A stretch of 33,331 nucleotides of DNA. Origin: Bacteroidota bacterium. Its GTDB lineage: Bacteria > Bacteroidota > Ignavibacteria > Palsa-1295. The first letter of the stretch is position 1. Each line of letters opens with the position of its first letter. The notes beneath the pieces were generated by a model that was given only the letters and a program-made list of their open reading frames with translations, searched no databases and was not told where the DNA came from. Location: positions 1 to 33,331 of the forward strand of contig JAUZOQ010000033.1 in the NCBI GenBank assembly GCA_030706385.1, written 5' to 3'. The position numbers and the translations under genes are program-made. Shown one piece after another: positions 1 to 25,741 of the stretch.

Positions 1-474
1 ACTTGCAGCCTACTCCCTGTCCTCGCCAAAGCTCGCCTCAAACAATGCCTTCTCCCTTACCGGCAGGACACTCTAGCTGAGCGATCTGTTTGCCATCCAG
101 ATAAAAGCATTAAAAGAACCTGTTGAAGCGAACTTCTGAGTACAAAAATACGGAATAAAAACATGAATTGCAAGGACAAAAGTATCGGATATTCCTCAAG
201 CAATCATACTTAACTTATTGAAAAATAATAACTTAAAAAATAAGTGAAATAAATTAAAATTGCCGAAAATAGGCTGGAAATAGGGGATCAATAGCTCGAA
301 GTTGTGGCATCACCTTGCGGATTGGGATAAAGTACTCGGCTGATTTTGGAATCGAAGATTTTTCACCCATTCCAGGAACATGGATAGGCGCATGCAGCAT
401 AGAACTTTCCAAGACTAGCTATGTTCAACGGAGGGTCTAATAGCAACAAACTGGGATAAAAAGTCGTGGGAGCC
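1..474. other. Non-coding leader region, no recognisable gene
   Basis: No convincing gene was found. A forward frame is open from base 1 to a stop at 124-126, but its 41 codons match no family I recognise. It could be the tail of a gene lying upstream or chance. Bases about 190-270 are strongly A+T rich and may hold the promoter for the first secreted-protein gene, but I see no clear TAnnTTTG match there. Confidence 0.5.
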
Positions 475-2250: not shown

Positions 2251-2295
2251 GTAGAATCTCAAACTTATGTATAGCGAGCAGCTCCTTCCACGTTG

Positions 2296-4053: not shown

Positions 4054-4061
4054 CAATGTTT

Positions 4062-4151
4062 GTAGGGGCACGCTGCGCGTGCCCTTTTGATGACTTCCAA
4101 ATATCTCTGGATACGCACAACTTCAGCAGGGCACGCGCAGCGTGCCCCTAC
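4062..4151. repeat. Inverted-repeat element, copy 1 (24-bp perfect arms)
   Basis: The left arm at 4062-4085 (GTAGGGGCACGCTGCGCGTG then CCCT) is exactly reverse-complementary to the right arm at 4128-4151, with a 42-base spacer. Each arm also contains its own hairpin, GGGCACGC-TGC-GCGTGCCC. The architecture is REP/BIME- or MITE-like, and a near-identical second copy lies at 6433-6524. It sits just after one T9SS cargo gene and could also act as a transcription barrier, but there is no clear T tract. Confidence 0.9.
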
Positions 4152-4187
4152 GAGGGTTGATTGCCGTCCTTTCAGATTAGGTATCTT

Positions 4188-4216
4188 TTTGACCCCTTCA
4201 AGCGTTAGTATATTTA
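4188..4216 (+). promoter_or_regulatory. Candidate Bacteroidota-type promoter
   Basis: TTTG at 4188-4191 and TATATTTA at 4209-4216 are separated by 17 bases. This resembles the -33 TTTG / -7 TAnnTTTG arrangement, with the last base of the -7 box mismatched. It lies 31 bases before the ATG of the following cargo gene, and the inverted repeat upstream may separate that gene from the preceding pair. Confidence 0.3.
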
Positions 4217-4247
4217 CACAGAACGTATCCACCATCCATGCACATCT

Positions 4248-10659: not shown

Positions 10660-11466
10660 ATGAAAAAGAATTCCGCTTTTGTGGCTATCGTCATTGTTTT
10701 GGCGTTCGTGATCGGATTCGTGCTCTGGGAATTCGTGCTTGGCAATCCCAGCAACTTCAAGGACCCGCTGACGCGCAAAGCTCCGCTTTCCGATAGCATT
10801 CTCGGTCTTATGTATGTCGGCGGATTTCTCGTGCCGGTACTTCTCGGCCTTTCGCTTATGGTCTTTACCTTCATCGCAGAGCGTTTCCTGAGCCTTTCGA
10901 AGGCAAAGGGAAAGAAAGATCTCGCCGCACTGCTTCCGCAGATCGAGAAATTGCTGAATGAAGGAAATTTAGATGCAGTCACAAAACTTTGCGACGAGCA
11001 GAAGGGAACAGTTGCTAATATCATCCGCGCAGGTATTTCGCGCTTCAAGGAAGTTCAGAATAACAGCAGCCTTTCGGCCGAGCAGAAAGCCGAAGAAGTG
11101 AAGAAGACCATCGAGGAAGTAACGATGCTCGAGACTCCGCTTCTGGAGCAGAATTTAGTTATCCTTTCGACGATCGCTTCGATCTCGACGATGGTCGGAC
11201 TTCTTGGTACGGTTCTGGGTATGATCCGGTCATTCCGCGCTCTCGGCGAAGGCGGAGCAGGAGCCAGCGCAACACAGTTATCGGTCGGTATCTCCGAAGC
11301 TCTGTGGAACACAGCTCTCGGTATCGGCGGCGCTATTATCGCTATCGTATTCTACAATTTCTTCACCAACAAGGTCGATAAATTTACCTATCTCATCGAC
11401 GAAGCATCGCTGAATTTGCTTGAGAATATCAAGGTTCGTTTCCTCGGAAAATCGGCAAATGTTTAA
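10660..11466 (+). CDS. exbB: MotA/TolQ/ExbB proton-channel protein
   Basis: This 268-residue inner-membrane protein is the proton-channel partner of ExbD and TonB. It has an N-terminal helix (about 6-28), a second near 48-72 and the characteristic pair of long helices. Family hallmarks are the ETPLLEQNLVILSTIASIST helix, the GLLGTVLGMIRSF motif, and the ATQLSVGISEALWNTALGI and IIAIVFYNFF blocks near the C-terminus. It opens the exbB-exbD-exbD-tonB cluster, with 26 bases to the next gene. With its partners it uses proton motive force to energise TonB-dependent outer-membrane transport. An AGGA eight bases before ATG supports the start. Confidence 0.93.
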   Translation: MKKNSAFVAIVIVLAFVIGFVLWEFVLGNPSNFKDPLTRKAPLSDSILGLMYVGGFLVPVLLGLSLMVFTFIAERFLSLSKAKGKKDLAALLPQIEKLLNEGNLDAVTKLCDEQKGTVANIIRAGISRFKEVQNNSSLSAEQKAEEVKKTIEEVTMLETPLLEQNLVILSTIASISTMVGLLGTVLGMIRSFRALGEGGAGASATQLSVGISEALWNTALGIGGAIIAIVFYNFFTNKVDKFTYLIDEASLNLLENIKVRFLGKSANV

Positions 11467-11492
11467 GCGATAGCAAAGGAAGAATATAACAA

Positions 11493-12035
11493 ATGTCAAA
11501 AGCAAAATTAAAACGGCACGGATTCCGGATCGACATGACTCCGATGGTCGATGTCGGCTTTCTGCTGCTGACCTTCTTTATGCTGACTGCGAAGTTCAAA
11601 TCGCAGAAGGATAATGTGGAGATCAAACTTCCGGTCGCTCAGGCCGATACGGCAAAGCTTCCGGATGTGAATATCGTCGTTCTGACGATCGCACTGGCTC
11701 CGGCGCAGCCGAACGAGACTCCGGATACCTTGATCTATTTCAGTGTGGCTACCGATAAGGACCGTGCGGCGATCTACAAACCGCTTGCACTTACCGATCC
11801 GAAAACGGGCGCACCGCTCGATGATAACGAGTTAACGAAGATGCAGCAAGTCTCGCTGAAGAAGTCGCAACTCGATGCCGTCGTTAAAGCTGCACGATGG
11901 CAAAACCAGAGTTTGCGATACGCCATCAATGCCGATAAGCGCCTGAGTTACGGCTATATCGATGATGTCATGCGAACGCTTCAGAAGAACGGCGCAACGC
12001 GGTTCAATCTTGTCACGGTCACGCAGGGATTATAG
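11493..12035 (+). CDS. exbD: ExbD/TolR biopolymer transport protein (first copy)
   Basis: This 180-residue ExbD family protein has a short cytoplasmic N-terminus (KLKRHGFRIDMTPMVDVGF) in which the Asp of MVDV is the expected proton-carrying residue. A single transmembrane helix (FLLLTFFML) is followed by a periplasmic domain. That domain carries an insert of about 40 residues between its first strand (DVNIVVLTIAL) and the C-terminal part (DAVVKAARWQNQSLRYAINADKRL, VMRTLQKNGATRFNLVTV), so it is longer than a minimal ExbD. It forms a pair with the next gene, as is common in Bacteroidota. Confidence 0.93.
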   Translation: MSKAKLKRHGFRIDMTPMVDVGFLLLTFFMLTAKFKSQKDNVEIKLPVAQADTAKLPDVNIVVLTIALAPAQPNETPDTLIYFSVATDKDRAAIYKPLALTDPKTGAPLDDNELTKMQQVSLKKSQLDAVVKAARWQNQSLRYAINADKRLSYGYIDDVMRTLQKNGATRFNLVTVTQGL

Positions 12036-12071
12036 AGTGACCACTCATTAACAATTTGAAAAGGGCAGGCA

Positions 12072-12572
12072 ATGGCTGAAATGGTAGAAGCCGGCGGACA
12101 CGGCAAAAAAGGGAAGAAATCCAAAAAAAGAGTCGGTGTGCGAATGGATATGACGCCCATGGTGGACGTTGCATTCCTGTTGCTCACTTTCTTCATGTTA
12201 TCGACGACTCTGAGCACTCCGCAAGTCATGGAGATCTCCTTGCCGCCGGATAGCAAGGTGAAGATCGAAGTTGGTGAATCGAACTTGCTGACGATCCGTG
12301 TCCGGAAAGACGATGCCGTCTTTTGGAACAAGGGAAAGGACGCACCGCAGAAGATCACTGCAGCCGAGATCAGCAAAATTCTCGAACAACGCCTTCGTGA
12401 AAATCCGAAGATCGCAACACTCATAAAGATCGACAGGGAAGCCAAATACCAGAAGTTAGTCGATCTCATCGACGAATTGAACCTGATCCAGGCAAAACTT
12501 GGGCAGACGGAGAAACGCTTCAGCATTATCACTATGGATAAGGATGACGACGCCCTTATCGGAAACTTATGA
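12072..12572 (+). CDS. exbD: ExbD/TolR biopolymer transport protein (second copy)
   Basis: This 166-residue ExbD family protein starts with a basic Lys/Gly-rich N-terminus, then RMDMTPMVDVAFLLLTFFML, with the conserved Asp at the head of the single transmembrane helix. A periplasmic domain of normal ExbD form follows (NLLTIRVRKDD, TLIKIDREAKYQKLVDLIDELN). It is a paralogue of the preceding gene and closer to the typical ExbD length. Two ExbD paralogues with one ExbB suggest a heteromeric ExbD dimer in the motor complex, which is an inference. The gene lies 36 bases after the first exbD and 37 before tonB. Confidence 0.93.
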   Translation: MAEMVEAGGHGKKGKKSKKRVGVRMDMTPMVDVAFLLLTFFMLSTTLSTPQVMEISLPPDSKVKIEVGESNLLTIRVRKDDAVFWNKGKDAPQKITAAEISKILEQRLRENPKIATLIKIDREAKYQKLVDLIDELNLIQAKLGQTEKRFSIITMDKDDDALIGNL

Positions 12573-12609
12573 TCCCATTTCGTGTATTACTTATAGGTAG
12601 AGAATAACT

Positions 12610-13380
12610 ATGTCATTAAGCGATCTTACCCTGAAGGGGATGGAGCAATACGGCGGAATCGATATCAAGAAGAACGCCGAGAAGAATACATACATGGGAT
12701 TCGTGTATTCTGTTGCTTTACATGCTCTGCTGATCCTGATCTATGTCGGCTGGACGTGGATCACAAGCGAGGACGACTCGAAAGTACCGCATTTCCGTCG
12801 CAAGATCACCAGTATCGCCGAACTTGCTCCGCCGCCATCGACTTCGCAGGATATGGCTGCACCGCCTCCATCGGCTCCGACTGTCGATGTTGCAAGGCCG
12901 ACATTCGGTATCCCTGTTCCTGTTCCTGATATTCAGGCTCCGAACCAGACGATGCCGACCAACGATATTCCAATGCCGCCGAGCGATAACACCGGCCCGG
13001 CAGGCCCCGGAGGCCCTCCGGGTGGAGAACCTGGCGGCGCACCGCCACCTCCGCCGCCGCCGCAGGATAAAGAACCCTCGGAAGATGAATTTATTGAAGT
13101 CTCCGAAGAGCCGAAGCCGACGGAGAATATTCAGACGAAAGTACAGTATCCTGAAACAGCAAAGAGATCCGGATTAGAGGGCAAAGTTACCTTTTCAGCT
13201 CTGATCGGCCTGGATGGCCGCGTATTGAACGTAAAGATCGATAAAGCCGATTATGAAGTGTTCAAACAGCCCGTTATCGATGCCGTTTCGAAAGTGCGCT
13301 TTACACCTGCGCGCAATGGCCAGACGCCGGTCAAGGTGTGGTATACGCAGACGATCAGCTTTAAACTGAACTCAAGGTAA
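12610..13380 (+). CDS. tonB: TonB energy transducer
   Basis: This 256-residue protein has classic TonB order. A cytoplasmic N-terminus of about 30 residues precedes one transmembrane helix near 31-51 (YSVALHALLILIYVGW, with the conserved Ser and His of TonB anchors). A proline-rich periplasmic spacer from about 74 to 152 includes a seven-proline run. The C-terminal TonB domain runs from about 175 to 256 (VQYPETAKRSGLEGKVTF, IDAVSKVRFTPARNGQTPV, WYTQTISFKL). It links the ExbB/ExbD motor to TonB-dependent receptors. It is the last gene of the four-gene cluster, which a strong intrinsic terminator closes 17 bases later. Confidence 0.93.
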   Translation: MSLSDLTLKGMEQYGGIDIKKNAEKNTYMGFVYSVALHALLILIYVGWTWITSEDDSKVPHFRRKITSIAELAPPPSTSQDMAAPPPSAPTVDVARPTFGIPVPVPDIQAPNQTMPTNDIPMPPSDNTGPAGPGGPPGGEPGGAPPPPPPPQDKEPSEDEFIEVSEEPKPTENIQTKVQYPETAKRSGLEGKVTFSALIGLDGRVLNVKIDKADYEVFKQPVIDAVSKVRFTPARNGQTPVKVWYTQTISFKLNSR

Positions 13381-13396
13381 GACCTTTCTTTTCAAG

Positions 13397-13435
13397 AACT
13401 GCAGTATCGTTTCGACGATGCTGCAGTTTTTTTTT
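13397..13435 (+). terminator. Strong intrinsic terminator after tonB
   Basis: A 14-bp stem (13397-13410 pairing with 13415-13428, one T-G wobble) has a TTCG tetraloop and is followed by an unbroken T tract to 13435. UUCG loops are exceptionally stable, and this is the clearest terminator in the window. Confidence 0.93.
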
Positions 13436-13436
13436 A

Positions 13437-13458
13437 CGTATTTTTGAAAAAAAATACG
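13437..13458 (+). promoter_or_regulatory. A/T hairpin with GAAA loop, overlapping a TAnnTTTG box
   Basis: CGTATTTTT (13437-13445) pairs perfectly with AAAAATACG (13450-13458) around a GAAA loop, only two bases after the tonB terminator T tract. TATTTTTG at 13439-13446 fits TAnnTTTG and could be the -7 box for the small membrane protein gene. Whether it works as promoter, second terminator or both is unclear. Confidence 0.35.
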
Positions 13459-13464
13459 ACGCCT

Positions 13465-13677
13465 ATGAAATTAACTGGATTGCTTTTTCTCCTCTTCGGT
13501 TTGATCGCTCTCGGATTAGGCATTGCAATGGTTGCCGATAAGACTCTCCTCAATCAGTTTGATTCAACCTTACGAACCGTATTCATAGTCTTGCTTTTTG
13601 TGTATGGTGCATATCGGCTGTGGACTGCAATCGGTACGATGAGGAATTCTTCGAAAACCCAAAGTCCGGCAAAATGA
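13465..13677 (+). CDS. Small two-helix membrane protein
   Basis: This is a predicted 70-residue inner-membrane protein with two hydrophobic helices (GLLFLLFGLIALGLGIAMVA and VFIVLLFVYGAYRLW) joined by a short polar loop, and a polar C-terminal tail. The ATG at 13465 is preferred. A TTG at 13444 would add seven Lys/Thr-rich residues but lies inside a hairpin. Its stop overlaps the start of the next gene as ATGA, so the small protein and the PstS-like lipoprotein are translationally coupled. The function is unknown. Confidence 0.7.
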   Translation: MKLTGLLFLLFGLIALGLGIAMVADKTLLNQFDSTLRTVFIVLLFVYGAYRLWTAIGTMRNSSKTQSPAK

Positions 13678-14582
13678 AGACTCGACCGGAGCTTTCGTGC
13701 ATTACCAGCTTTTTCCTTATAATAATCCTCCTTTCAGGTTGTGGGAAGAATCGCTCCGGCGAACCCCAGCCTGATACTGCAACATCGGGAAGTTTCGAAC
13801 TTACTGCCGATGAAACGCTACGACCTGTTATCGATAGCCTAGTCTATGGATTCAATGTCCAGACTCCGAACGCAAAGGTAACGGTTCGATACAAGAATGC
13901 AACGGAAGCTCTTGATGATCTTATTCAGCAGCGAACACGTCTTGTCCTCATTGGCCGTCCGCTTGCGCCGAAGGAACGTGATCTACTTGCGAAGGAGAAG
14001 ATCGAACTGATCGATGCCGATGTTGCCGAAAATGCGATCGGATGTATCGTCAGCTCAAAAAGCAAACTTGAATCGATCAGCATGGATTCTTTGCGCACTC
14101 TGATCACCAATCAAAGTCTTCCGGCCGGTAATGCAAATGTTATGGTTCGCATTTCCAGCCCCTATCTCTCAAGCACTGAATCCGTCTTGGATTCGATCTT
14201 TGGTTTGGATCATTACCAATCCGGACTGATCCGCCGCTACGAAACTTCCGACAGCATCATTTCCCGTGTTCGCGCGGATGAGCATGCAATAGGATTTGTT
14301 AATGCATCGTGGCTGAAACAACTTTCGAATTCTGGTGATACGGGGATTCGGGTGCTCCGTATCTCAGGCACCTCCGATCGACCGATCATGATGCATCCGG
14401 CATATGTCCTTCAGGGATTGTATCCTCTCGTTTCGCGTATCTGTGCCTATACATCCGATGTGCCGAATACTCTTCCGAGGGGATTCCTAGCCTATGCAAT
14501 GTCTGCAGATGGGCAGCGTGTATTCCTCAATTATGACTTGCTGCCGAAAACACAGATCTTAAAGCTCGTTCCTCCTCAATAA
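13674..14582 (+). CDS. PstS-like periplasmic substrate-binding lipoprotein
   Basis: This 302-residue lipoprotein has a lipobox ending LLSGC (Cys23). The mature part resembles the PstS-like phosphate-binding fold: an early DETLRPVIDSLVYGF helix, a TVRYKNATEALDDL segment, IGRPLAPKE, and an AIGFVNASWLKQL block near residue 210, with a closing FLAYAMSADGQRVFLNYDLLP. The ATG at 13674 overlaps the previous stop codon, and an in-frame upstream extension to 13620 lies inside the preceding gene and is rejected. No pst permease or ATPase is adjacent. From memory, PstS-like proteins and a TPR protein commonly follow exbB-exbD-exbD-tonB in Bacteroidota, so its role may belong to that envelope module rather than phosphate import. 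Confidence 0.8.
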   Translation: MKTRPELSCITSFFLIIILLSGCGKNRSGEPQPDTATSGSFELTADETLRPVIDSLVYGFNVQTPNAKVTVRYKNATEALDDLIQQRTRLVLIGRPLAPKERDLLAKEKIELIDADVAENAIGCIVSSKSKLESISMDSLRTLITNQSLPAGNANVMVRISSPYLSSTESVLDSIFGLDHYQSGLIRRYETSDSIISRVRADEHAIGFVNASWLKQLSNSGDTGIRVLRISGTSDRPIMMHPAYVLQGLYPLVSRICAYTSDVPNTLPRGFLAYAMSADGQRVFLNYDLLPKTQILKLVPPQ

Positions 14583-14716
14583 CTCGACCGTTTATGAGAA
14601 AGATTTAATCATTCCGAAGCCCTTTGGCCGAAATTCCTTACCTAAGTATGGTGTTTTAATGGCTGTATCGGAAATCTATTGCATAATTCTGTTCGCTTAA
14701 TACTCTAAAATACTCT

Positions 14717-16411
14717 ATGCGTTCTTATCGCAGTTTTGTTCTTCATATACTCATTCTTGCACCGGTCTTCGCGATCACCACGGGGAGGATCGAAGCTCAG
14801 ACCACGAACGAACGGATCAAGAAGGATCTTCAGCTCGTCGATCTCGGTAATCCTAAACAGGCTCTGAACGATCTTCAGCTGATGACGGCATCTGAACCGA
14901 AAAACGCCGAGGCTCACGCAGCTTTAGCTCTAGTCATGATCGACATGGGCGACCAAGCAAGCGCCGAAAAAGAAGTTGCAACTGCCTACGATCTTGAAAG
15001 AAAGAATGTCCTTGTTCGAATTGCACGAGGCACGCTTTACGGAAAGAAAGGGAAGCGAGAAGACGCCATTGAAGAATTCAATCGTGCCATTAAGATCAAT
15101 GATAAAGACATTTCGAGTTTTCTTGCCTTAGCGCATTATTATCTTTCCATCGATTCTCTGAAGCCTGCCGAGATCGCATTGTATCGCGCTCAGTCAGTCA
15201 ATGCAACCGATGTTCGTCCTTTTCTCGGACTTGCCGAGCTTTATGAGAAGCAGCATATTCCGGATCTTGCGATCAATCAATATCAGGAAGCGAAAAAGAT
15301 CGATCCGAAGGATGAAGTCGTTATCGCCAAACTCGCCCAACTCTACTTCCGCGCAAAGAGATATTACGACGCAGTGAAGGAATGGGAAAGTCTAGCGAAG
15401 GTCGATCCGACCTACTGCAGAGCATACTATGAAATGGCGCATATCTATGACATTTCCGAAGACCACGCCAACGCCGCTACCTATGCCGATAAGTATGTTG
15501 CCTGCGATCCTGAGAACATGGAAGGCATCTGGCTTTTGGCCCGATCACTCGCTGAGAGCAATCAGTATCAGAAAGCGCTTCCGTATCTTGAGAAAGCTTC
15601 GAAGAACGACAGCCTGAAAACCTATACCGATCTTTATTTAGCCCGTAGTTACTTCTTTGCCAAGGATTATCCGAAGGCTAATCAGATGTATGCTGCATCG
15701 AAGAATCTGAGCGCCTATGATCTGTACTACTACGGCTTCTCACTCATTTCCAGCGGTGATACTGCTGGCGGCATTGAGAAATGGAAACTCGAGCTTGTTG
15801 CCGATACCTCTCACAAAGCCGAGGAAAAGCTTAAAGTCCGACAGCAGATCATCAGCTATCTCAATATTCAGAAAAAATATGCGGAGATCGCAAAGATCTA
15901 TCTCGATTATCCCAAAGACCCAGTCGATGATGCTGTAAGTGCCGGACAATTCTATAACGCAGCGAATAGGCCGAACGAAGCTCAGGCAGCATTCGCAATG
16001 GCTCTGCAACGGAATCCAAAATCGATAAAAGCGATGGTCGGAATGGCCGATGCTCTGGGCAAGAATCCCGATAGCCTCGATGCCTCCGAAAAAATGATCG
16101 ATAATGCCGCAACATTCGCCGCCACTGCCGAGGAGAAGGAAGTGATTGGCAATGCGTACGCCCGTCTTGGAATTCAAAACTACACTGCAAAGAATTATGA
16201 AGCCTGCGTAGCTGTACTCGAGAATAAGGCAATGAGATACCTTACGCCGAAGTCGCCGTTCATGATCAATGTCTATAAAGTCGCAGCAGCCGGAGATCTT
16301 CAGTTGAAGAATAATAAGAAAGCAACAGAATACTACCGGAAGGCTGAGGCAATCGATCCGAAAGATGAGGACGTGAAGAAGGGCCTGGAATTCCTCAAAC
16401 AGTCCAAATAA
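14717..16411 (+). CDS. Periplasmic tetratricopeptide-repeat protein
   Basis: This 564-residue exported protein has a signal peptide ending near GRIEAQ. Nearly the whole mature chain is tandem 34-residue TPR units, recognisable by repeated A-x-L-x-x-x-Y, G/A at position 8 and P-x-D/N turns (for example GTLYGKKGKREDAIEEFNRA, LAELYEKQHIPDLAINQY and AQLYFRAKRYYDAVKEW). I count at least ten units, ending near EAIDPKDEDVKKGLEFL. TPR solenoids act as protein-protein scaffolds. The position after exbB-exbD-exbD-tonB and a PstS-like lipoprotein suggests a periplasmic scaffold linked to TonB energisation, which is inference. A 134-base gap precedes it and a clear terminator follows. Confidence 0.88.
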   Translation: MRSYRSFVLHILILAPVFAITTGRIEAQTTNERIKKDLQLVDLGNPKQALNDLQLMTASEPKNAEAHAALALVMIDMGDQASAEKEVATAYDLERKNVLVRIARGTLYGKKGKREDAIEEFNRAIKINDKDISSFLALAHYYLSIDSLKPAEIALYRAQSVNATDVRPFLGLAELYEKQHIPDLAINQYQEAKKIDPKDEVVIAKLAQLYFRAKRYYDAVKEWESLAKVDPTYCRAYYEMAHIYDISEDHANAATYADKYVACDPENMEGIWLLARSLAESNQYQKALPYLEKASKNDSLKTYTDLYLARSYFFAKDYPKANQMYAASKNLSAYDLYYYGFSLISSGDTAGGIEKWKLELVADTSHKAEEKLKVRQQIISYLNIQKKYAEIAKIYLDYPKDPVDDAVSAGQFYNAANRPNEAQAAFAMALQRNPKSIKAMVGMADALGKNPDSLDASEKMIDNAATFAATAEEKEVIGNAYARLGIQNYTAKNYEACVAVLENKAMRYLTPKSPFMINVYKVAAAGDLQLKNNKKATEYYRKAEAIDPKDEDVKKGLEFLKQSK

Positions 16412-16436
16412 GCACAATTTCACCATGAGAAAGATA

Positions 16437-16468
16437 CAAGGCACGTCACGGACGTGCCTTGCGTTTTT
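16437..16468 (+). terminator. Intrinsic terminator after the TPR gene
   Basis: A perfect 11-bp stem CAAGGCACGTC/GACGTGCCTTG (16437-16447 and 16451-16461) with an ACG loop is followed by CG and five T residues. It lies 25 bases after the TPR stop codon and separates this gene from the Mla operon. Confidence 0.88.
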
Positions 16469-16488
16469 AAGCCTATAAAATACCGGCT

Positions 16489-17268
16489 ATGAATGTCTTA
16501 TCGCGATCGACCGTATTAAACTTCCTGGAAAAGATCGGAGGCTTGTCGCGCTTTTCCATGCGATTTTTCCGGACTGCTTTTCGTCGCCCCTTTGAAACAA
16601 AGGAGCTGGTTAAGCAAACCTATGAAGTCGGCGTTCGTTCGTTCGGACTCGTCGCCATCGTAGCGATCGTCATCGGTGCCGTACTCACGATGCAGAGCAG
16701 GCCGACGATGATGAAGTTCGGAGCCGAAGCCTTTATTCCGGCAATGGTCGCTGTTAGCGTGCTGCGCGAGCTTTCTCCAGTACTTATTTCAATTATCGTG
16801 GCAGGCCGCGTTGCAGCCGGCATTGGTGCCGAGCTTGGCTCGATGCGTGTTACCGAGCAGATCGACGCCATGGAAGTCGCCGCGCTCAGCCCGTTCAATT
16901 ACCTTGTCGTTACACGCGTTCTTGCCTGTATGATCGCCTTACCTCTACTCACCGTTTATGCGGATTTCCTGGCCCTTGTTGGTGCGTTCATTGTCCAAAA
17001 TATCGAAGCAGGAATGAGCGGAAGGCTCTTCTACAACAGCGTCATGAGCAGTGTCAATTTTGCGGACTTTGCTCCCGGAGTCGTAAAAACCATATTTTTC
17101 GGATTCATCGTAGGGATCGTCGGTTGTTTTGAAGGCTATAACTCCGAAGGTGGTACCGAAGGCGTCGGGCGCTCGGCAACCGATGCCGTCGTCGTCAGTT
17201 CGCTGCTGATCATCATCGCAGACGTGCTTGCAGTGAAATTGACTGTTTTCTTTTTCGATATTGCCTGA
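16489..17268 (+). CDS. mlaE: MlaE-family lipid transport permease
   Basis: This 259-residue inner-membrane permease belongs to the MlaE/YrbE family, which with MlaF and MCE proteins moves phospholipids or other lipids between membranes. It shows an N-terminal amphipathic stretch (SRFSMRFFRTAFRRPFE), several membrane helices, the ELSPVLISIIVAGRVAAGIGAELG core and the family's RVTEQIDAMEV motif, then PFNYLVVTRVLACMIALPLL and a late VGCFEGYNSEGGTEGVG block. The stop and the next gene's ATG overlap as TGATG. It starts 20 bases after a terminator, so the promoter must be very close or transcription reads through. Confidence 0.92.
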   Translation: MNVLSRSTVLNFLEKIGGLSRFSMRFFRTAFRRPFETKELVKQTYEVGVRSFGLVAIVAIVIGAVLTMQSRPTMMKFGAEAFIPAMVAVSVLRELSPVLISIIVAGRVAAGIGAELGSMRVTEQIDAMEVAALSPFNYLVVTRVLACMIALPLLTVYADFLALVGAFIVQNIEAGMSGRLFYNSVMSSVNFADFAPGVVKTIFFGFIVGIVGCFEGYNSEGGTEGVGRSATDAVVVSSLLIIIADVLAVKLTVFFFDIA

Positions 17269-18077
17269 TGCCGGAGAAAAAGGAAACTACAACTCATAAG
17301 ACTCTGATCGAAGTCGAACATATCTCAAAGTCGTTCGGCAGCAATCACGTGCTTAATGACATTTCTCTTACCATCGGCGAAGGAGAAACACTGACGGTCT
17401 TGGGAAAAAGCGGAGTAGGGAAGAGCGTACTGCTGAAGCTTATTGTAGGACTGATGCCGTTGGATTCCGGCATTGTACGATACGAGGGACGCTCCATCGC
17501 AGAGGCGACGGAGAAAGAGCTTAATGAGATCCGCAAGAATATCGGATTCCTCTTTCAGGGAGGAGCGCTGTTCGATTCGATGAGTGTAGGAGAGAATCTC
17601 AATATTATTTTACACAAACACACCGATCTTCCTCTTGAAGAACGGGAAACGCGGATCATCCGCGCTCTGGAATTGGTTGGGCTCAAGGATAAACTCGATG
17701 AAATGCCGTCAGCTCTATCGGGCGGACAGAAGAAAAGAGCAGGCTTGGCCCGGTCGATCGTGCTCAAACCAAAGCTCATCCTCTATGATGAGCCGACGAC
17801 AGGGCTTGACCCGATCACTGCCGGCTCCATCGCCGAGCTTATCCTGAGCTTGCAGACTGAATTACAGGTCGCCTCGATCGTTGTAACACATGATCTGCCG
17901 ACGGCCTTCACCGTCAGTGATCGAACAATCGTACTCGAAAGCGGGAAGAAAATCTATGACGGGCCTGTTGAGGGACTTGCTGAAGCAGGACACGATCATC
18001 TCGGTGAATTCCTCAAGGCTGCAAAACTCGATAGGTCGCGCCGAGAAGAGATCATCAAGAATGCGCACAAAATGTAA
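17268..18077 (+). CDS. mlaF: MlaF-family ABC transporter ATPase
   Basis: This 269-residue ABC ATPase pairs with the MlaE permease. Walker A is GKSGVGKS (about 46-53), the Q-loop Gln is near 97 (FLFQGGALFDS), the signature is LSGGQKK (about 150-156), Walker B is LILYDEP (about 170-176) with catalytic Glu175, and the switch His lies in VVTHDLPTAF. The GVGKSVLLK Walker A context and GGALFDSMSVGEN are typical of the MlaF/MKL branch. It overlaps mlaE by one base and is followed after 17 bases by the MCE protein gene, so the three form one operon. Confidence 0.93.
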   Translation: MPEKKETTTHKTLIEVEHISKSFGSNHVLNDISLTIGEGETLTVLGKSGVGKSVLLKLIVGLMPLDSGIVRYEGRSIAEATEKELNEIRKNIGFLFQGGALFDSMSVGENLNIILHKHTDLPLEERETRIIRALELVGLKDKLDEMPSALSGGQKKRAGLARSIVLKPKLILYDEPTTGLDPITAGSIAELILSLQTELQVASIVVTHDLPTAFTVSDRTIVLESGKKIYDGPVEGLAEAGHDHLGEFLKAAKLDRSRREEIIKNAHKM

Positions 18078-18094
18078 ATAAAACCTTTAATTGC

Positions 18095-19108
18095 ATGAAA
18101 ATAGCAAAGATACCAGCTTCTCGAACTGGACTTTTCGTCATCATTTGCTTTAGCCTTCTGGTTATTGCGTTGTTTCTTATTGGTGATAAGCAGAAGCTAT
18201 TCAGCAACACATCGAAGTATTATGTCAAGTTTCGTGAAGTCAGTGGGTTAAAGCAGGGAGCGCAAGTTCAAATAACCGGAATCAACGTAGGCAGTGTAAG
18301 CAAGATCGAATTGCCAAGAAAATCCGGAGATTCTGTGCTACTAACGATTCAAGTGGTGAAAGAGGCTCAGAACCTTATCCATATGGATTCGAAAGCCTCG
18401 GTAACGACGGAGGGATTAGTTGGGAATAAGACAATTTCGATCACCGTTGGAACGGATGACAGCCCGCTCAAACCGATTGGCGGATTGATCATCGGAGAGT
18501 CCCAGCGCGACCTGATGGGCGTTGTGGATTCGGCCGTTGCAGCACTGGACGCCGTAAAGGACCTGACGGTACAGGCGACCGGCATCGTTACCGATATGCG
18601 CTCAGGAAAAGGCTCGATCGGCAAGTTACTCAATGACGAAGGCCTCTATAACGACATCAGGGCAATCGTAAGTAATACGGATAAGAGCCTGGCAACCATT
18701 ACGCGGACAGCGAATACCGTCGGAGTCTCTGTGGATTCGGCATTGGCGAATATCTCGGCAACATCATCGGAGTTCAAGCAGTTGGCAAAATCGATCAATA
18801 GCGGCAAGGGCAGTGTCGGCAAGCTGCTCAATGATACGGATCTCTATGTGAAGCTTGTTGGCATGACAGGCTCGATCAATAGCACCATAGCCGAGCTGCA
18901 CGATGCCATGATGAAGATCTCAGCGGCTTCCGGAAATGCCGTAGAAGTGACTGAGGCATTCAAGCACAATTTTCTTGTTAAAGGATATTTTGAAGACCGT
19001 GGATATTGGGATGCTGCAGCATTCGAAAAGAACATTCAAACCAGGATCGACTCGCTACAGCAGATCGAATCGCGGATCAACCTAAAGCTCAAACAGATCC
19101 AGAAATAG
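18095..19108 (+). CDS. mlaD: MCE/MlaD-family lipid-transport protein
   Basis: This 337-residue protein has one N-terminal membrane helix (about 12-30) and an MCE domain at about 38-115 (YYVKFREVSGLKQGAQVQITG, VGSVSKIEL, SKASVTTEGLVGNKTISIT). The C-terminal half is longer than in Escherichia coli MlaD. It is alpha-helical and carries a repeated segment, GKGSIGKLLNDEGLYNDI near residue 170 and GKGSVGKLLNDTDLYVKL near 232. This suggests a long helical tube or coiled coil reaching into the periplasm. No MlaB, MlaC or MlaA gene follows, so the system is reduced or completed elsewhere. A convergent gene lies 65 bases downstream. Confidence 0.9.
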   Translation: MKIAKIPASRTGLFVIICFSLLVIALFLIGDKQKLFSNTSKYYVKFREVSGLKQGAQVQITGINVGSVSKIELPRKSGDSVLLTIQVVKEAQNLIHMDSKASVTTEGLVGNKTISITVGTDDSPLKPIGGLIIGESQRDLMGVVDSAVAALDAVKDLTVQATGIVTDMRSGKGSIGKLLNDEGLYNDIRAIVSNTDKSLATITRTANTVGVSVDSALANISATSSEFKQLAKSINSGKGSVGKLLNDTDLYVKLVGMTGSINSTIAELHDAMMKISAASGNAVEVTEAFKHNFLVKGYFEDRGYWDAAAFEKNIQTRIDSLQQIESRINLKLKQIQK

Positions 19109-19124
19109 CCTTCCAGAGCCCGTA

Positions 19125-19148
19125 GTATCTATCTCTGTCAATAGATAC
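19125..19148. terminator. Possible weak hairpin between convergent genes
   Basis: GTATCTAT and ATAGATAC form a perfect 8-bp stem with an 8-base loop. It lies between the ends of two convergent genes. There is no T tract on either side, so termination here is only suggested. Confidence 0.3.
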
Positions 19149-19173
19149 ATTATGTAAAGTCGCGAATGAGCCT

Positions 19174-19656
19174 TTACTCTCTTCCCTTGAATCGCAGCAT
19201 CGGCGCATTTTTTTCTACTGACGATCCTGCTTCTACTAACACTTCTGCGACGATTCCAGAGAATCCTGCTAAGATCGAATTCTCCATTTTCATTGCTTCC
19301 AGGAGAATTACTTGAGTGTGCTTTTCGACAATATCGCCGGCTTGGACTGTGATAGCTCTGACCATTCCCGGCATCGGAGCCTTCAGGGTTTTTGAGTTGC
19401 CGCCTTTGCCTGAACCGCTCTCCTTGCCTACCCCTGAAAACCTTTCCCTAATGATACGGTCCCGTTCGCTTTCGACCTTGACTTCGATACCATCAAGCGC
19501 ATTTCCGTCGCTCAGAAGTCCGCCGGATGTCACGAAGATCTCGACGAGACCGTTCTTGCCGCGTACCAGGAAATGCGTCGGGCTTTCCTCGATAACCTCT
19601 GGCATGGAGTCCAGGACTACCGTCTTACCATTGATCTCCCCTCGGATTTGCTTCAC
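19174..19656 (-). CDS. Biotin/lipoyl carrier protein
   Basis: This 160-residue protein has a C-terminal biotinyl domain from about residue 90 (LKAPMPGMVRAITVQAGDIV, then EAMKMEN with the biotinylated Lys123, and a closing VLVEAGSSVEKNAPML). A Gly/Ser/Lys linker (about 74-90) joins it to an N-terminal domain that I do not recognise beyond general resemblance to carboxylase carrier subunits. It would carry carboxybiotin for an acyl-CoA carboxylase or a decarboxylase pump, but no carboxylase gene is adjacent. The start is a GTG, three bases after the upstream stop codon, so the two genes are probably co-transcribed. The ribosome binding site is weak. Confidence 0.88.
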   Translation of the reverse strand: MKQIRGEINGKTVVLDSMPEVIEESPTHFLVRGKNGLVEIFVTSGGLLSDGNALDGIEVKVESERDRIIRERFSGVGKESGSGKGGNSKTLKAPMPGMVRAITVQAGDIVEKHTQVILLEAMKMENSILAGFSGIVAEVLVEAGSSVEKNAPMLRFKGRE

Positions 19657-19659
19657 TTG

Positions 19660-20913
19660 TTAGAAAAAGACGTGCGTTTGAACAAGAAAGGTATTTTCGG
19701 TGAAATCATCAAGAGCTGTCGAGCCTTGCGTCGTCGCGCTCGATGAATTTGCTATCCGGAATTCGGGGCGGATCTCCAAGAACCGTATCGGAAACCACTG
19801 CGCGCCGATCATGATCCGACCCTTTACTTTTGTATCGGTTATTCCTGCCGGGTTCTCGTCAGAAAAAGTCTCGTACCGAAGAATGCCGTCAAGCCCTTTC
19901 GTGATCCGGATGGATCCTTCAAGACAAAGGGCATTCGCTTTGGCGACGACAGCGGCATTATCTAAAACAACATTTTCACCAAAATCATATTCGCCCAGGA
20001 TAGAGACAGGCCCTACTCGAAGCCCGACGTGCGCAGCATTGAGGGCTAGATTGACGGCCTGCCCACCGATAGAATTATGCATATATCTGGAAAATCCAAT
20101 TTCTCCGGCAAGCATATCTTCAATAAATTCACCGGCAGCATTTATCCGAACACAAATGGCCTTATTAGGATCGGTGCTGAATGTTGCACGAGGTGAAGTC
20201 TCCGAGCCATTGAACATTCCGGCAGTGATTCCGATATGATCGAAGAACAATGCTCCGATCTCTGCGCCGACATCGCGATAACCAGGCGACCAGAAGAATC
20301 CGGCCGGGGCAAATCCGGAAAGGCTGGCTGTCCCCCCTTTTACATAGACCGTATGGTCATCGAAGCGAACACCGAAGGCAGGAAGGAATGAGCCGACTTT
20401 TATGTAGGCATTCGTCACGGCATCTGAGGATTTGAGGAGCTCACCAGAGGAATGAACAAAATGCAAGATGGCCCAACCTTCGCTCGGTGTCAGACCTAAT
20501 GGATCGTACCGGAAGAAGCCGTGCAAGGTATTGGTGGCTTTAACATCAAGTTCGAATGCGAGACTCATTGCATGAAAAGATGTCACGCTCAGAGTTGTGT
20601 CTGCTTTGTTCTGGCCAAGCGGGCCTTTCTGGGCGAAGTACAAAAGCTGGCTACGGAAGTCGCCGCCCAATCTGAGACCTTCGGAAATATCTCCGGTATA
20701 CTTAATATTCTCGCCGCGTTTCCACATCGGAAGGTCGTTGATCGCATACGATACGCCTCCCGGTCCGCGAAGCTGGCCGCCGGTAGGATTGACGTGGCAT
20801 CCAAGGCAATTGGCTTCCCCTCTCATCAAAGCAAATCGTGGCAACGCGAAGGCTTGGGACACTGATACAATTAGGACAAGTACAGTAGAAAAGTAGATCG
20901 ATAGCTGTTTCAT
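19660..20913 (-). CDS. Exported haem-motif beta-barrel protein
   Basis: This 417-residue protein has a signal peptide of about 23 residues ending SQAFA. One c-type haem motif follows at once: Cys36-x-x-Cys39-His40 within RGEANCLGCHVNPTGG. The rest is rich in alternating hydrophobic/polar beta strands (for example GRIMIGAQWFPIRFLEIRPEF) and ends in NTFLVQTHVFF, a C-terminal aromatic residue typical of outer-membrane barrels. The overall plan, one N-terminal haem followed by a porin-like barrel, recalls Cyc2-type cytochrome-porins, although I cannot show homology. It may pass electrons across the outer membrane or belong to an uncharacterised PxFA...CxxCHVNPTGG-type family. It lies 47 bases after ribF with its own possible -7 box and is followed after 3 bases by the biotin carrier gene. 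Confidence 0.8.
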   Translation of the reverse strand: MKQLSIYFSTVLVLIVSVSQAFALPRFALMRGEANCLGCHVNPTGGQLRGPGGVSYAINDLPMWKRGENIKYTGDISEGLRLGGDFRSQLLYFAQKGPLGQNKADTTLSVTSFHAMSLAFELDVKATNTLHGFFRYDPLGLTPSEGWAILHFVHSSGELLKSSDAVTNAYIKVGSFLPAFGVRFDDHTVYVKGGTASLSGFAPAGFFWSPGYRDVGAEIGALFFDHIGITAGMFNGSETSPRATFSTDPNKAICVRINAAGEFIEDMLAGEIGFSRYMHNSIGGQAVNLALNAAHVGLRVGPVSILGEYDFGENVVLDNAAVVAKANALCLEGSIRITKGLDGILRYETFSDENPAGITDTKVKGRIMIGAQWFPIRFLEIRPEFRIANSSSATTQGSTALDDFTENTFLVQTHVFF

Positions 20914-20942
20914 ATGACTGCGTTATAGTGAATGAACTCAGG

Positions 20943-20950
20943 CAAATATA
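20943..20950 (-). promoter_or_regulatory. Candidate -7 box of the haem/beta-barrel gene
   Basis: TATATTTG on the reverse strand lies 30 bases upstream of the ATG, in the gap after ribF. It matches TAnnTTTG. The nearest upstream TTG is 24 bases away, slightly long, so only the -7 box is convincing. Confidence 0.4.
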
Positions 20951-20960
20951 CGGATGCTCG

Positions 20961-21893
20961 CTACTTAGTTGTTGCAACACGCACTTTTTTCACATCCTCT
21001 TCGATTTGAGTTTTTAGTTCTTCGAGTGTATCGAATGTCGCTTGAGGGCGGAGATAGGAATGAAATTCAAGTCGGAGTTTATTTTCGTAGAGGTTGCCCG
21101 CAAAATCCAGGAGAAAGGCTTCTACCTTCCGCGGGCCGTTCGCTTCAATTGTTGGTCGATTCCCAATGCTGATCGCTGCGAGATAATGCCGGCCATCGTG
21201 AGTTGCTCTACCTGAATACACGCCGTCACTTGGTATGAGTTTGCTTGCCGGCACGCTCAAGTTAGCCGTTGGGTATCCGAGAGCCGTTCCGATCTTGTCG
21301 CCGCCTTCTACGACTCCTGTTAATTCGTATGGCCTGCCGAGATACTCATTCGCAATGGCAAGCCTTCCTTCCAAAAGTGCATGTCGGATCTTCGTTGAAC
21401 TGATACTCACTCCATCAACGATCAGAGGCGGCACCGATTCAACCCGTATTCCCGATTCTGCTGCAAGAGCCTTCAAATGCTCTACATCCCCTTCCCTGTT
21501 CTTTCCAAATGCATGATTGAAACCAACGACCATAGCCTTTGTGCCGAGTTTCGCGAGCAAGATATTCCGAAAAAAATCGTTGTAGGGCATCTTCGAGAAG
21601 TCGAGCGAAAAACGGATGACAAGGGCTTCATCGATTCCGGCCTTCTCAAAGAGAGCCAAGCGTTCATCGATCGTCGTCAGAAGATTAACGCTGCTATTAT
21701 TCTTGCGGAGTACTTCCTGCGGATGCGGATCGAAGGTCAAGACAAGCGAGCGATTCATTCCAAGCTCTTGCTTTGTGCGAATCAGCCGGGCTAATATTTC
21801 GACATGCCCTCTGTGCATACCGTCATAGCTGCCCAGAGTCGTAACAGTCTTCGGATCGAACGAGGCATTTTCAAGCCCCCAGGTTACTTTCAA
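20961..21893 (-). CDS. ribF: Bifunctional riboflavin kinase/FAD synthetase
   Basis: This 310-residue enzyme phosphorylates riboflavin to FMN and adenylates FMN to FAD. The N-terminal nucleotidyltransferase half carries GSYDGMHRGH (about 21-30), the family's nucleotide-binding motif, plus SLVLTFDPHPQEVL and SISSTKIRHALLEG. The C-terminal riboflavin kinase half shows GTALGYPTANLSVP, GVYSGRA and SIGNRPTI, followed by VEAFLLDFAGNLY and RLEFHSYLRPQATFDTLEEL. The length is normal. It lies six bases after truB, in the usual place at the end of the rimP-nusA-infB-rbfA-truB cluster. FAD synthesis may be relevant to the GMC flavoenzyme in the window, but the genes are not linked. Confidence 0.95.
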   Translation of the reverse strand: MKVTWGLENASFDPKTVTTLGSYDGMHRGHVEILARLIRTKQELGMNRSLVLTFDPHPQEVLRKNNSSVNLLTTIDERLALFEKAGIDEALVIRFSLDFSKMPYNDFFRNILLAKLGTKAMVVGFNHAFGKNREGDVEHLKALAAESGIRVESVPPLIVDGVSISSTKIRHALLEGRLAIANEYLGRPYELTGVVEGGDKIGTALGYPTANLSVPASKLIPSDGVYSGRATHDGRHYLAAISIGNRPTIEANGPRKVEAFLLDFAGNLYENKLRLEFHSYLRPQATFDTLEELKTQIEEDVKKVRVATTK

Positions 21894-21899
21894 GATATT

Positions 21900-22661
21900 C
21901 TAGTTCGGTTGAATGAGTGATTCGATCTTATCTTCGGTCAGGGCGTCGGCAATATTCCAATCGCCGATCTTCTCCCTTCGAAGATTTGTCAAGACGGCGC
22001 CGGTTCCGAGCATTGTACCGATATCGGAGGCAAGACTACGGATGTAGGTACCCTTGGAACATTCGGCACGAAAACGTACGTACGGTATTTCGATTTCGAT
22101 ACCGACGATGGAATGGATCGTAATGTTTTTTTGCGCCATTTCGATTTCTCTGCCTTTTCGGGCATGCTTATACATCGGCTTTCCCCGAAGCTTCACGGCG
22201 CTAAAGATCGGCGGCCTCTGCAACTGATCGCCTACAAAATTACTTACTGCTGCAAGCACGAGTCCCGACGTGATCCCTTCAAGTCCGCCGGTGATCTTGA
22301 TCGGAGTCTCGAGATCGAAGCTCGGAGTCGTAATTCCCAGGCGCAGTTCACACCAGTAGGTTTTCCCAAGGCCCAACAACTGAGTCAGAGAGCGTGTTGC
22401 TTTACGCGTTGCGATGATGAGAAGCCCTGTCGCAAGAGGATCGAGCGTTCCACCGTGGCCGACTTTCACCCATTTATCACCGGAATATTTCGTGAGGATG
22501 TGACGAAACCTGTTCACCATGCTAAATGAGGTAACGCCGTACGGCTTATCCAAAAGAAGGAGTGCTCCTTGCTCGTCATTGAGCGCAGGCAGGATTGAGA
22601 GCGGATCTCGTTGGTAATCGGAGAGCGTAAGGATAGGCGGAGCGATCGGAGAATCAGGCAT
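21900..22661 (-). CDS. truB: tRNA pseudouridine-55 synthase
   Basis: This 253-residue enzyme makes pseudouridine 55 in the T-loop of tRNAs. Motif I is LLLDKPYGVTSF (about 35-46). The catalytic aspartate is Asp74 in GHGGTLDPLATGLL, and the later KGTYIRSLASDIG motif is present. The start overlaps the end of rbfA by 8 bases, indicating translational coupling. A 30-residue extension precedes the first motif. The C-terminus is short and appears to lack a PUA domain, as in shorter bacterial TruB forms. Confidence 0.95.
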   Translation of the reverse strand: MPDSPIAPPILTLSDYQRDPLSILPALNDEQGALLLLDKPYGVTSFSMVNRFRHILTKYSGDKWVKVGHGGTLDPLATGLLIIATRKATRSLTQLLGLGKTYWCELRLGITTPSFDLETPIKITGGLEGITSGLVLAAVSNFVGDQLQRPPIFSAVKLRGKPMYKHARKGREIEMAQKNITIHSIVGIEIEIPYVRFRAECSKGTYIRSLASDIGTMLGTGAVLTNLRREKIGDWNIADALTEDKIESLIQPN

Positions 22662-23010
22662 CGGGTTTTTCCTGCTCGTGGATCTTTTTGAACAACTCCT
22701 CTATCCGCGATACTTCCTCTTGCGTATCATCGAGATAGAAGAATAGCTCGGGAGTGTGACGAAGCCTCAGGGATCGTCCCATCGCCGACCGGATATGCGG
22801 AGCTTCGAGCTTGATCGCCTTTAAAACATCTTCATGCTGGCGCTTGCCGCCGATGAAGCTAAGATACACGCGGCAACTGCGAAGATCGGGCGACATGCGA
22901 ACCATCGTCACCGTAAGCAAGCCATCGCTGAAGTGCGAGAAGTCGCGCTGAAAAAGATTCGACAAGATCTTCTGGATCTCGCCGGCTACACGTTCGGTTC
23001 GAATCGACAT
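22654..23010 (-). CDS. rbfA: 30S ribosome-binding factor RbfA
   Basis: This 118-residue protein assists 30S subunit maturation by binding near the 5' helix of 16S rRNA. Family blocks include an early RTERVAGEIQKILSNLFQR, TVTMVRMSPDLRSCRVYLSF, and RSAMGRSLRLRHTPELFFYLDDT near the C-terminus. The length is normal for the family. It follows infB with only one base between stop and start and overlaps truB by 8 bases, so it is embedded in the translation operon. Confidence 0.95.
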   Translation of the reverse strand: MSIRTERVAGEIQKILSNLFQRDFSHFSDGLLTVTMVRMSPDLRSCRVYLSFIGGKRQHEDVLKAIKLEAPHIRSAMGRSLRLRHTPELFFYLDDTQEEVSRIEELFKKIHEQEKPDA

Positions 23011-23011
23011 A

Positions 23012-25741
23012 TTATCGTACGGGCAGAGGGATCTCCAGTTTACGTTTCACCTCAACCATCTTGAAGGCTTCGACGGTATCGCCAACCTTGATGTCGTTGA
23101 AATTCTCAAGTCCAATACCGCACTCGTAACCGGCATCGACTTCCCTGACGTCATCTTTGAAGCGCTTCAAAGAGGTCAGATTGCCCGAGAAAATTTCGAG
23201 GCCATCACGAATGACGCGCACTCTGTTATTACGGGTGATCTTCCCTTCCTGCACATAACAACCGGCAACGGTACCGATCTTCGGCACTTTGAAGATCTCG
23301 CGAACAATGACCGTACCCAAGACTTCCTCTTTTTCCTCCGGAGCAAGCAGGCCTTCGAGTGCAGCACGGACTTCATTGATACAGTCGTAGATGACACTAT
23401 AGAGTCGGATATCGACATGCTCGGCAGCGGCAATTCTGCGAGCATCAAGATTCGGACGAACATGGAAGCCAATAACGATGGCATTGCTGGCGGCAGCGAG
23501 ACGAACGTCGTTCTCTGAAATGGCTCCGACTGCTCTGTGCACGATCTCGACCTTTACTTCGCTTGTTGCCAAACGCTGTAATGAATCGGCAAGCGCTTCG
23601 ACCGATCCATCGACGTCGCCTTTAAGAATGATACGAAGATTCCGTACTTTTCCTTCTTTGATCTGCTCGCTGATATCGTCAAGGCTGATGACGGATTTCA
23701 TCTGCTTGAAGCTCTGCTCGCGTTTGAGCTGCTGACGAGTAAGCGAAATTTCTTTCGCTGCGCTATCGGATTCTACAACAATAAATTGATCTCCGGCTTG
23801 TGGAATGCCATCGAACCCAAGCAGCTGAACAGGACGTGACGGCGGAGCCTCTTCGAGGCGATTGCCGCGCTCATCGAACATTGCTCTGACTTTTCCGGAA
23901 TAAACACCTGCAATGAAAGGATCGCCCATGCGAAGCGTGCCTTTTTGTACGAGGACGGTTGCCTGAATGCCTCGCCCTTTATCCACTTCGGCTTCAACGA
24001 TAACGCCTCGTGCCGGACGGTCGGGATTTGCCTTAAGCTCGAGAATATCTGCTTCGAGAAGCACTCTCTCCAAAAGTTTATCGACATTCAAACCGGTGCG
24101 AGCTGAAATTTCCACTGCTCCGTATTTTCCGCCCCATTCTTCGACAAGAATATTCTTATCGGAAAGCTGCTGACGGATACGATCGGGATTCGCCTCAGGG
24201 CGATCGATCTTATTGAGCGCGATAACAATCGGAACATTGGCGGCCGTAGCATGAGAAATTGCTTCCCATGTCTGCGGCATGACGCTATCATCGGCTGCGA
24301 CAACGAGGATAACGATGTCGGTTACCTGCGCTCCGCGAGCACGCATGGCCGTGAAGGCTTCATGGCCAGGGGTATCTAGGAAACTGATCTGCCTGCCATT
24401 ATCGAGCGAAACTTCATAAGCGCCGATATGCTGGGTAATACCTCCGGATTCACCGGCAACAACGCGTGACTTACGGATATAATCGAGCAGCGACGTCTTG
24501 CCGTGATCGACGTGACCCATGATCGTTACGACGGGCGGGCGCGGCTTCAGAGTCTCAGGCTCATCAGGTGTATCTTCGAGAACGTCAGTTGTATACTCTT
24601 CCTGGAATTCGATCGTGTATCCGAATTCATCGGCAACAAGCTGAATCGTATCTTTCTCGAGTCGTTGATTGATCGAGACCATGAGTCCGAGTCCGATACA
24701 CTTCGAGATGATCTCGCCAACATCGACATGCATGAGATTTGCAAGTTCGTTAGCAGTCAGAAATTCCGTAGCCTGGATAACCTTACCCTGTGACTCTTGT
24801 TCGAGGATACGGCGCTCTTCAGTTTCGGCACGATCGCGGCGGCGCTGCTTACGCATTTTTGCACGTCCGGAAACAGCACTCGATTCATCGAGGCCGAACA
24901 GCGTGCGCTTTACCGCTTCCTGAACTTCTTTGGCATTGATCGTAGATTTCTCTCTTCCGCGTTTCTTCTTACCCGAACGATCTTCTTCTTCAAGAGCTTT
25001 TTTCGTCTTGACCTCAAACTCTTTGGGTTTTCCGTCAGTCTTACCGAGTTTTGGAGATTTCTTGAGATCGAGCCTTTGCATGGGCTCTTTCTTTTTCGGA
25101 TGCAGAGCTTCGAGATCGATCTTGCCTTTGATCTTCAGGCCCTGAACGGGAGATTGCTGTTCCGGCGCTCCGGTAACAAGAACGGTCGTGGTTTTCTTCT
25201 TGCGGCGCTTACGCTTGCTCTTTGCTTCTTCGCTTTCCTCGCCATGCTCTTCGCCAAGTTCAGTCGTTTCGGCAACACCTTCAGCCGGCTCGCCTTCGGC
25301 AACGATGGGCTGGGCTTCTGGGGCAGGGACTTCTTCTTCGGAAATTTCTTTTTCAGGCTGCAGTATGGGCTCGGCAGGAATTTCCTGCGGAGCTTTTACT
25401 TCTTTTTCCTGGATTGGGGCAGCGGGCTCCCCTTTTTTGGCTGTCTCTTTCTTCGGAGCTTTCGGAGGTTCTTCGACTGCGGCTTCGCCTTTGCTGATGG
25501 CTCGCTTCTCTTTGAATGCCGCTACTTTCTTCTGGCGCTTTTCTGTAACATCTCGGTCTTTTCCGAACTGCTTCATCACCAGTTCGAGAGCATCTTCGTC
25601 CACTTTGGACATAATGCTCTTAATGTTCGTATACCCTTTTTTCTGGAGAAACTCGATCAGTGTATCATGACTGATGTTGATCTCCGTTGCAAGGTTGCGA
25701 ACGGTAGTTTTTTTCGTCTTTTCTGTCGTGTCAGCCGCCAT
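23012..25741 (-). CDS. infB: Translation initiation factor IF-2
   Basis: This 909-residue GTPase places initiator tRNA on the 30S subunit and promotes subunit joining. It has an N-terminal IF2-N domain (about 14-62), a long low-complexity acidic/basic, Pro- and Lys-rich region (about 65-320), a second IF2-N-like module (about 325-375), and then the G domain with GHVDHGKT (409-416), DTPGH (456-460) and NKID (510-513). The beta-barrel domains and the IF2 C-terminal domains follow ([34 protein letters not shown]). The length is normal for a long bacterial IF-2. It lies 60 bases after nusA. The neighbouring YlxR and L7Ae-like genes found here in many bacteria are absent. Confidence 0.97.

Follow-up and report, generated by a model that had tools for sequence, protein, structure and literature searches.

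A conserved family of predicted single-haem outer-membrane porins, separate from Cyc2, in a class of mostly uncultured bacteria

The gene, its product and the predicted barrel

In the window (the whole stretch of 33,331 nucleotides that was analysed), an open reading frame with an ATG start was located on the minus strand at 19660..20913, stop codon included. According to the ORF list and translation, it encoded a protein of 417 aa with the layout of a fused monohaem cytochrome-porin; all parts described below lie on the same strand. A Sec signal peptide was assigned to residues 1–23 (20845..20913) by eye rather than with a signal predictor, based on a charged start, a hydrophobic core and the sequence AFA at the likely cleavage site. 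It was followed by the haem segment (residues 24–60, LPRFALMRGEANCLGCHVNPTGGQLR..., 20734..20844), which contained the predicted haem c attachment site CLGCH at residues 36–40 (20794..20808) in the context CLGCHVNPTGG. No second CxxCH was present in the protein or among the other retained ORFs of the window. Approximately 370 residues followed the motif and the C-terminus read THVFF, so the layout described in the first-pass annotation, a haem site directly after the signal peptide and a long downstream part ending in Phe-Phe (HVFF in the translation), was found as claimed.

No Pfam or NCBIfam model covered the 417-aa protein, and weak matches to PfkB and IolC were far below the cut-off and were rejected. 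Neither the protein nor the family profile retrieved anything from the PDB sequences beyond chance-level or haem-motif matches. The predicted porin barrel (residues 80–417, 19663..20676) was analysed by profile comparison using only the part downstream of the haem, with TonB receptors, a soluble enzyme and reversed sequences as controls. The family barrel profile matched a haem-less porin set, made up mostly of proteins that match Porin_O_P (PF07396), with 99.5% probability (P 6e-23) and an alignment spanning residues 80–415. The match to the Cyc2-like barrel was weaker (95.5%, P 1.4e-8), and the controls reached 0–3.7%. The haem-less porin set matched the structures of OprO and OprP (E about 1e-18), OprO over its full length. 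The curated Pfam cut-off of Porin_O_P was not reached, with no match for the window protein and one of 30 family members at E 5e-4. Hydrophobic periodicity of the β type was evident in the family (z 3.8; 12 amphipathic strand peaks vs 6.0 in permutations) and, in the same test, in the Porin_O_P set (16 strand peaks vs 5.3). An AlphaFold2 model from an alignment of two sequences only (the window protein and its homologue L001) had a pLDDT of 26 and was set aside. Given the profile homology to Porin_O_P and OprO/OprP together with the hydrophobic periodicity, a closed, 16-stranded OprO/OprP-like barrel is likely, in line with the barrel-like character noted earlier.

Conservation of the family and its relation to Cyc2

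A search with the single sequence against 247 genomes of the phylum detected homologues in 37, every one in the same class. With a 30-member profile against 395 genomes, strong matches (E below 1e-50, counted from the profile-search table) were obtained in 68 genomes, again all of this class, and full-length homologues were present in these genomes. The family is common across this class, most of whose members are uncultured. The closest named record was an Ignavibacteriae MAG (L001, 62% identity), and some relatives were shorter than the window protein. No further homologues were found in viral contigs, and none on plasmids in the plasmid search. The family tree had two deep branches of 41 and 35 alignment rows and mostly tracked bacterial families. 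In one genome of the same bacterial family (G164; L143:5025-6203), the gene occurred twice, each deep branch being represented by one copy.

The CxxCH motif was kept in 30 of 30 homologues at 22–62% identity and occurred once in each of 76 alignment rows, which represent 74 genes (two rows are truncated second copies of genes already included). Because of this invariance, the CxxCH of the window protein is not a chance occurrence. The results that the first-pass annotation had named as speaking against its reading, a soluble fold, a small or incomplete barrel and loss of CxxCH in homologues, did not appear.

Three sites in the barrel were specific to the family. Met116 (20566..20568) was present in all 76 rows, where haem-less porins mainly have Lys. 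Within Asp-Asp-His 185–187 (20353..20361), a triplet found neither in haem-less porins nor in Cyc2, Asp186 was conserved in 74 and His187 in 73 of the 76 rows. His414 in the last strand (19672..19674) was conserved in 71 rows, whereas haem-less porins mainly carry Gln (10/14). Cyc2 had no consistent residue at position 116 or 187. Since these residues are conserved in the family and not in its haem-less relatives or Cyc2, they are candidate distal haem ligands. Porins carry polar residues at the equivalent positions, which suggests that the side chains face the lumen.

Cyc2 is defined by the motifs AXPXFAR[Q/K][T/Y] and PXL (Keffer et al. 2021, PMC8406198). PXFAR[Q/K][T/Y] upstream of the haem was found in 0/76 rows, the window protein reading ALPRFALMR, and PXL after CXXCH likewise in none. 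The window protein does have a signal peptide with a single N-terminal CXXCH and, at 417 aa, exceeds the Cyc2 minimum of at least 365 residues. As FAR[Q/K][T/Y], the distinctive stretch of the first motif, and PXL are both absent from all 76 rows, we keep the family apart from Cyc2; by these motifs, the predicted single-haem outer-membrane porins form a real and separate conserved family. The earlier suggestion of a distinct, undescribed family therefore holds within the literature searched, in which no account of the family or its motif was found (most subscription papers and preprints lay outside the search).

The proposed resemblance to the Cyc2 plan was borne out. Both families share a signal peptide, one CxxCH directly after it and a predicted OprO/OprP-type porin of similar length and the same superfamily, as well as, before the haem, an [AS][LI]PxFA-like stretch at equal spacing in most family members. 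In profile comparison, the haem segment gave 96.8% (P 2e-10) against its counterpart in Cyc2-like proteins and a stronger 98.2% (P 5e-14) against the one in T9SS-secreted monohaem proteins. The CxxCH alone, compared with multihaem segments, gives about 80% (P 1e-5), so the likeness goes beyond the motif. The T9SS-secreted proteins belong to Temptin_C (PF24784) and have a similar haem segment (CxxCHxNPxGGGxRNxFG), but they end in a T9SS sorting tail and lack a barrel. The likeness is confined to the haem segment, and the Temptin_C Pfam model had no match in the window protein; a search of the window's own genome for Temptin_C proteins found none.

Could the family be Cyc2 proper, an Fe(II) oxidase with a drifted haem motif that shares both the fusion ancestor and the job? 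The identical order of parts, the same distance, in most members, between the upstream proline and the first Cys, and the matches of barrel and haem segment to Cyc2-like proteins fit such a descent. However, neither Cyc2 motif occurs in any row, an NPTGG-type sequence follows the CxxCH, and the family has its own Met116, DDH and His414 as well as different gene neighbours. In addition, the barrel is nearer to haem-less Porin_O_P than to Cyc2, the haem segment is likewise nearer to that of the T9SS cytochromes, and the window's own genome encodes a separate Cyc2-like protein. We therefore regard divergence from Cyc2 as unlikely. Somewhat more plausible, though still tentative, is an independent origin: the family may be a second class of fused cytochrome-porin that arose by the joining of a Temptin_C-like haem segment to a Porin_O_P barrel, would take its distal haem ligand from the barrel wall, and would pass electrons to or from T9SS-secreted or lipoprotein surface cytochromes.

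Gene neighbourhoods in the window's lineage and in relatives

At three loci, those of the window, L001 and L062, ribF flanked the porin-cytochrome gene on one side and a biotinyl-carrier-like gene on the other, and no cytochrome gene was adjacent. This order (19174-21893 in the window) was shared by the three genomes at 44–62% protein identity. Elsewhere in the window (466-6407), three large secreted proteins had ends that by eye resemble T9SS sorting tails. The window's own genome encoded cytochrome c assembly proteins and a COX2 protein. A cluster on contig C71 (about 11000-25600; L159, L082, L160) contained the Cyc2-like gene (L082:4499-5893, minus strand), a DmsE-family decahaem cytochrome above the model cut-off, a 786-aa outer-membrane-like protein, two cytochrome b/Rieske pairs and a protein with eight CxxCH motifs. 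This cluster possibly serves iron oxidation or electron uptake. That the 786-aa protein is an MtrB is a guess only, as it had no Pfam, PDB or NCBIfam match.

Over 54 loci, the density of other c-type cytochrome genes was 2.53 per 10 kb within 1 kb of the porin gene, where all 27 lay on its strand, and 0–0.25 per 10 kb beyond 4 kb. A looser count, which includes a few doubtful ORFs, gave a CxxCH gene within 4 kb in 31 of 57 contexts. The kind of cytochrome varied by bacterial family. The neighbours were T9SS-tailed Temptin_C monohaem cytochromes in f3, PSCyt1-like proteins in f2, f4, f9 and f13, and CytoC_RC-like proteins in f7. In f10 (best seen at L149, L150 and L153), the porin gene was accompanied by genes for an MtrC/F-like lipoprotein with five to six haems, a Rieske protein and a monohaem protein, and also for a 13-haem protein similar to DmsE and a protein of the b561/NapC type; this set resembles a quinol-to-surface electron route. 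Monohaem proteins with a CxxCH-bearing Temptin_C domain and a T9SS sorting tail were observed at L063, L065, L067, L069-L072 and L084-L086, their genes often directly upstream of the porin gene; they are possibly surface cytochromes secreted via type IX secretion. In f10 (L149, L150, L152, L153:3874-11061, L097), the electron-transfer gene run extended from the b561/NapC-type protein to the MtrC/F-like lipoprotein, which has collagen-like repeats, and at L097 porin genes alternated with 5-6-haem genes.

Like the MtrAB, MtoAB and Pcc complexes, the family invites the idea of an outer-membrane electron conduit, and in f10 its gene sits with MtrC/F-like and DmsE-like cytochromes. Those complexes, however, hold a separate multihaem cytochrome in a larger, 26-strand barrel, whereas the family has one fused haem and a smaller porin. 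An arrangement of the MtrAB type, with a separate multihaem cytochrome in the porin, was not found, and the window contained no multihaem gene.

Proposed function

Homology and gene neighbourhood together make it probable, in our judgement, that the protein is a trans-outer-membrane electron conduit, a porin with one fused c-type haem. After Sec export, haem would be attached to Cys36 and Cys39 with His40 as the proximal ligand, and the downstream part would fold as a porin-type barrel, probably with 16 strands. The short haem segment may lie at or inside the periplasmic side of the pore, and the distal ligand would probably come from a lumen-facing barrel residue (Met116, His414 or His187). 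Through the protein, periplasmic cytochromes could then exchange electrons with a surface cytochrome, or with a soluble donor or acceptor that enters the pore. What the computations show is the CxxCH with its conservation, the homology to porins, the residues specific to the family and the cytochrome genes beside the porin gene in relatives; haem loading, closure of the barrel, the place of the haem, its distal ligand, the role in electron transfer and the possible direction and substrate are inferred. Against a conduit, one haem cannot span the membrane by itself; either a partner not yet seen or a substrate within the pore would have to complete the path.

The extracellular electron-transfer role put forward in the first-pass annotation is probable from the cytochrome genes beside the porin gene in relatives; the gene neighbourhood in the window's own lineage, with ribF and the biotinyl carrier, counts against a conduit. 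The cytochrome c assembly proteins and the decahaem/Cyc2-like cluster in the same genome count for one. The missing cytochrome neighbour would also suit a haem-bearing porin outside respiration, in which the haem serves to sense or detoxify a small molecule such as iron or peroxide, or to gate the pore; according to PMC8446621, Bradley et al. 2020 raise iron detoxification as a possibility for Cyc2. Against this stands the repeated association in relatives with several cytochrome types, multihaem sets included, and we consider such a role improbable, slightly more so than descent from Cyc2. An ordinary Porin_O_P porin that carries no haem, with an incidental or structural CxxCH, is very hard to reconcile with the invariance of both Cys and the His in 76/76 rows and the family-specific His and Met in the barrel, even though that barrel is clearly of an ordinary porin superfamily.

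If the protein is an electron conduit, a mostly uncultured class would harbour an unnamed single-haem route through the outer membrane that marker screens built on the Cyc2 motif would overlook. The Cyc2 principle would extend to a second family, with Met116, His187 and His414 as testable residues, and the type IX secretion system would be tied to surface electron transfer. If, moreover, the fusion arose independently of Cyc2, Ignavibacteria-like bacteria would possess a class-wide trans-outer-membrane electron route.
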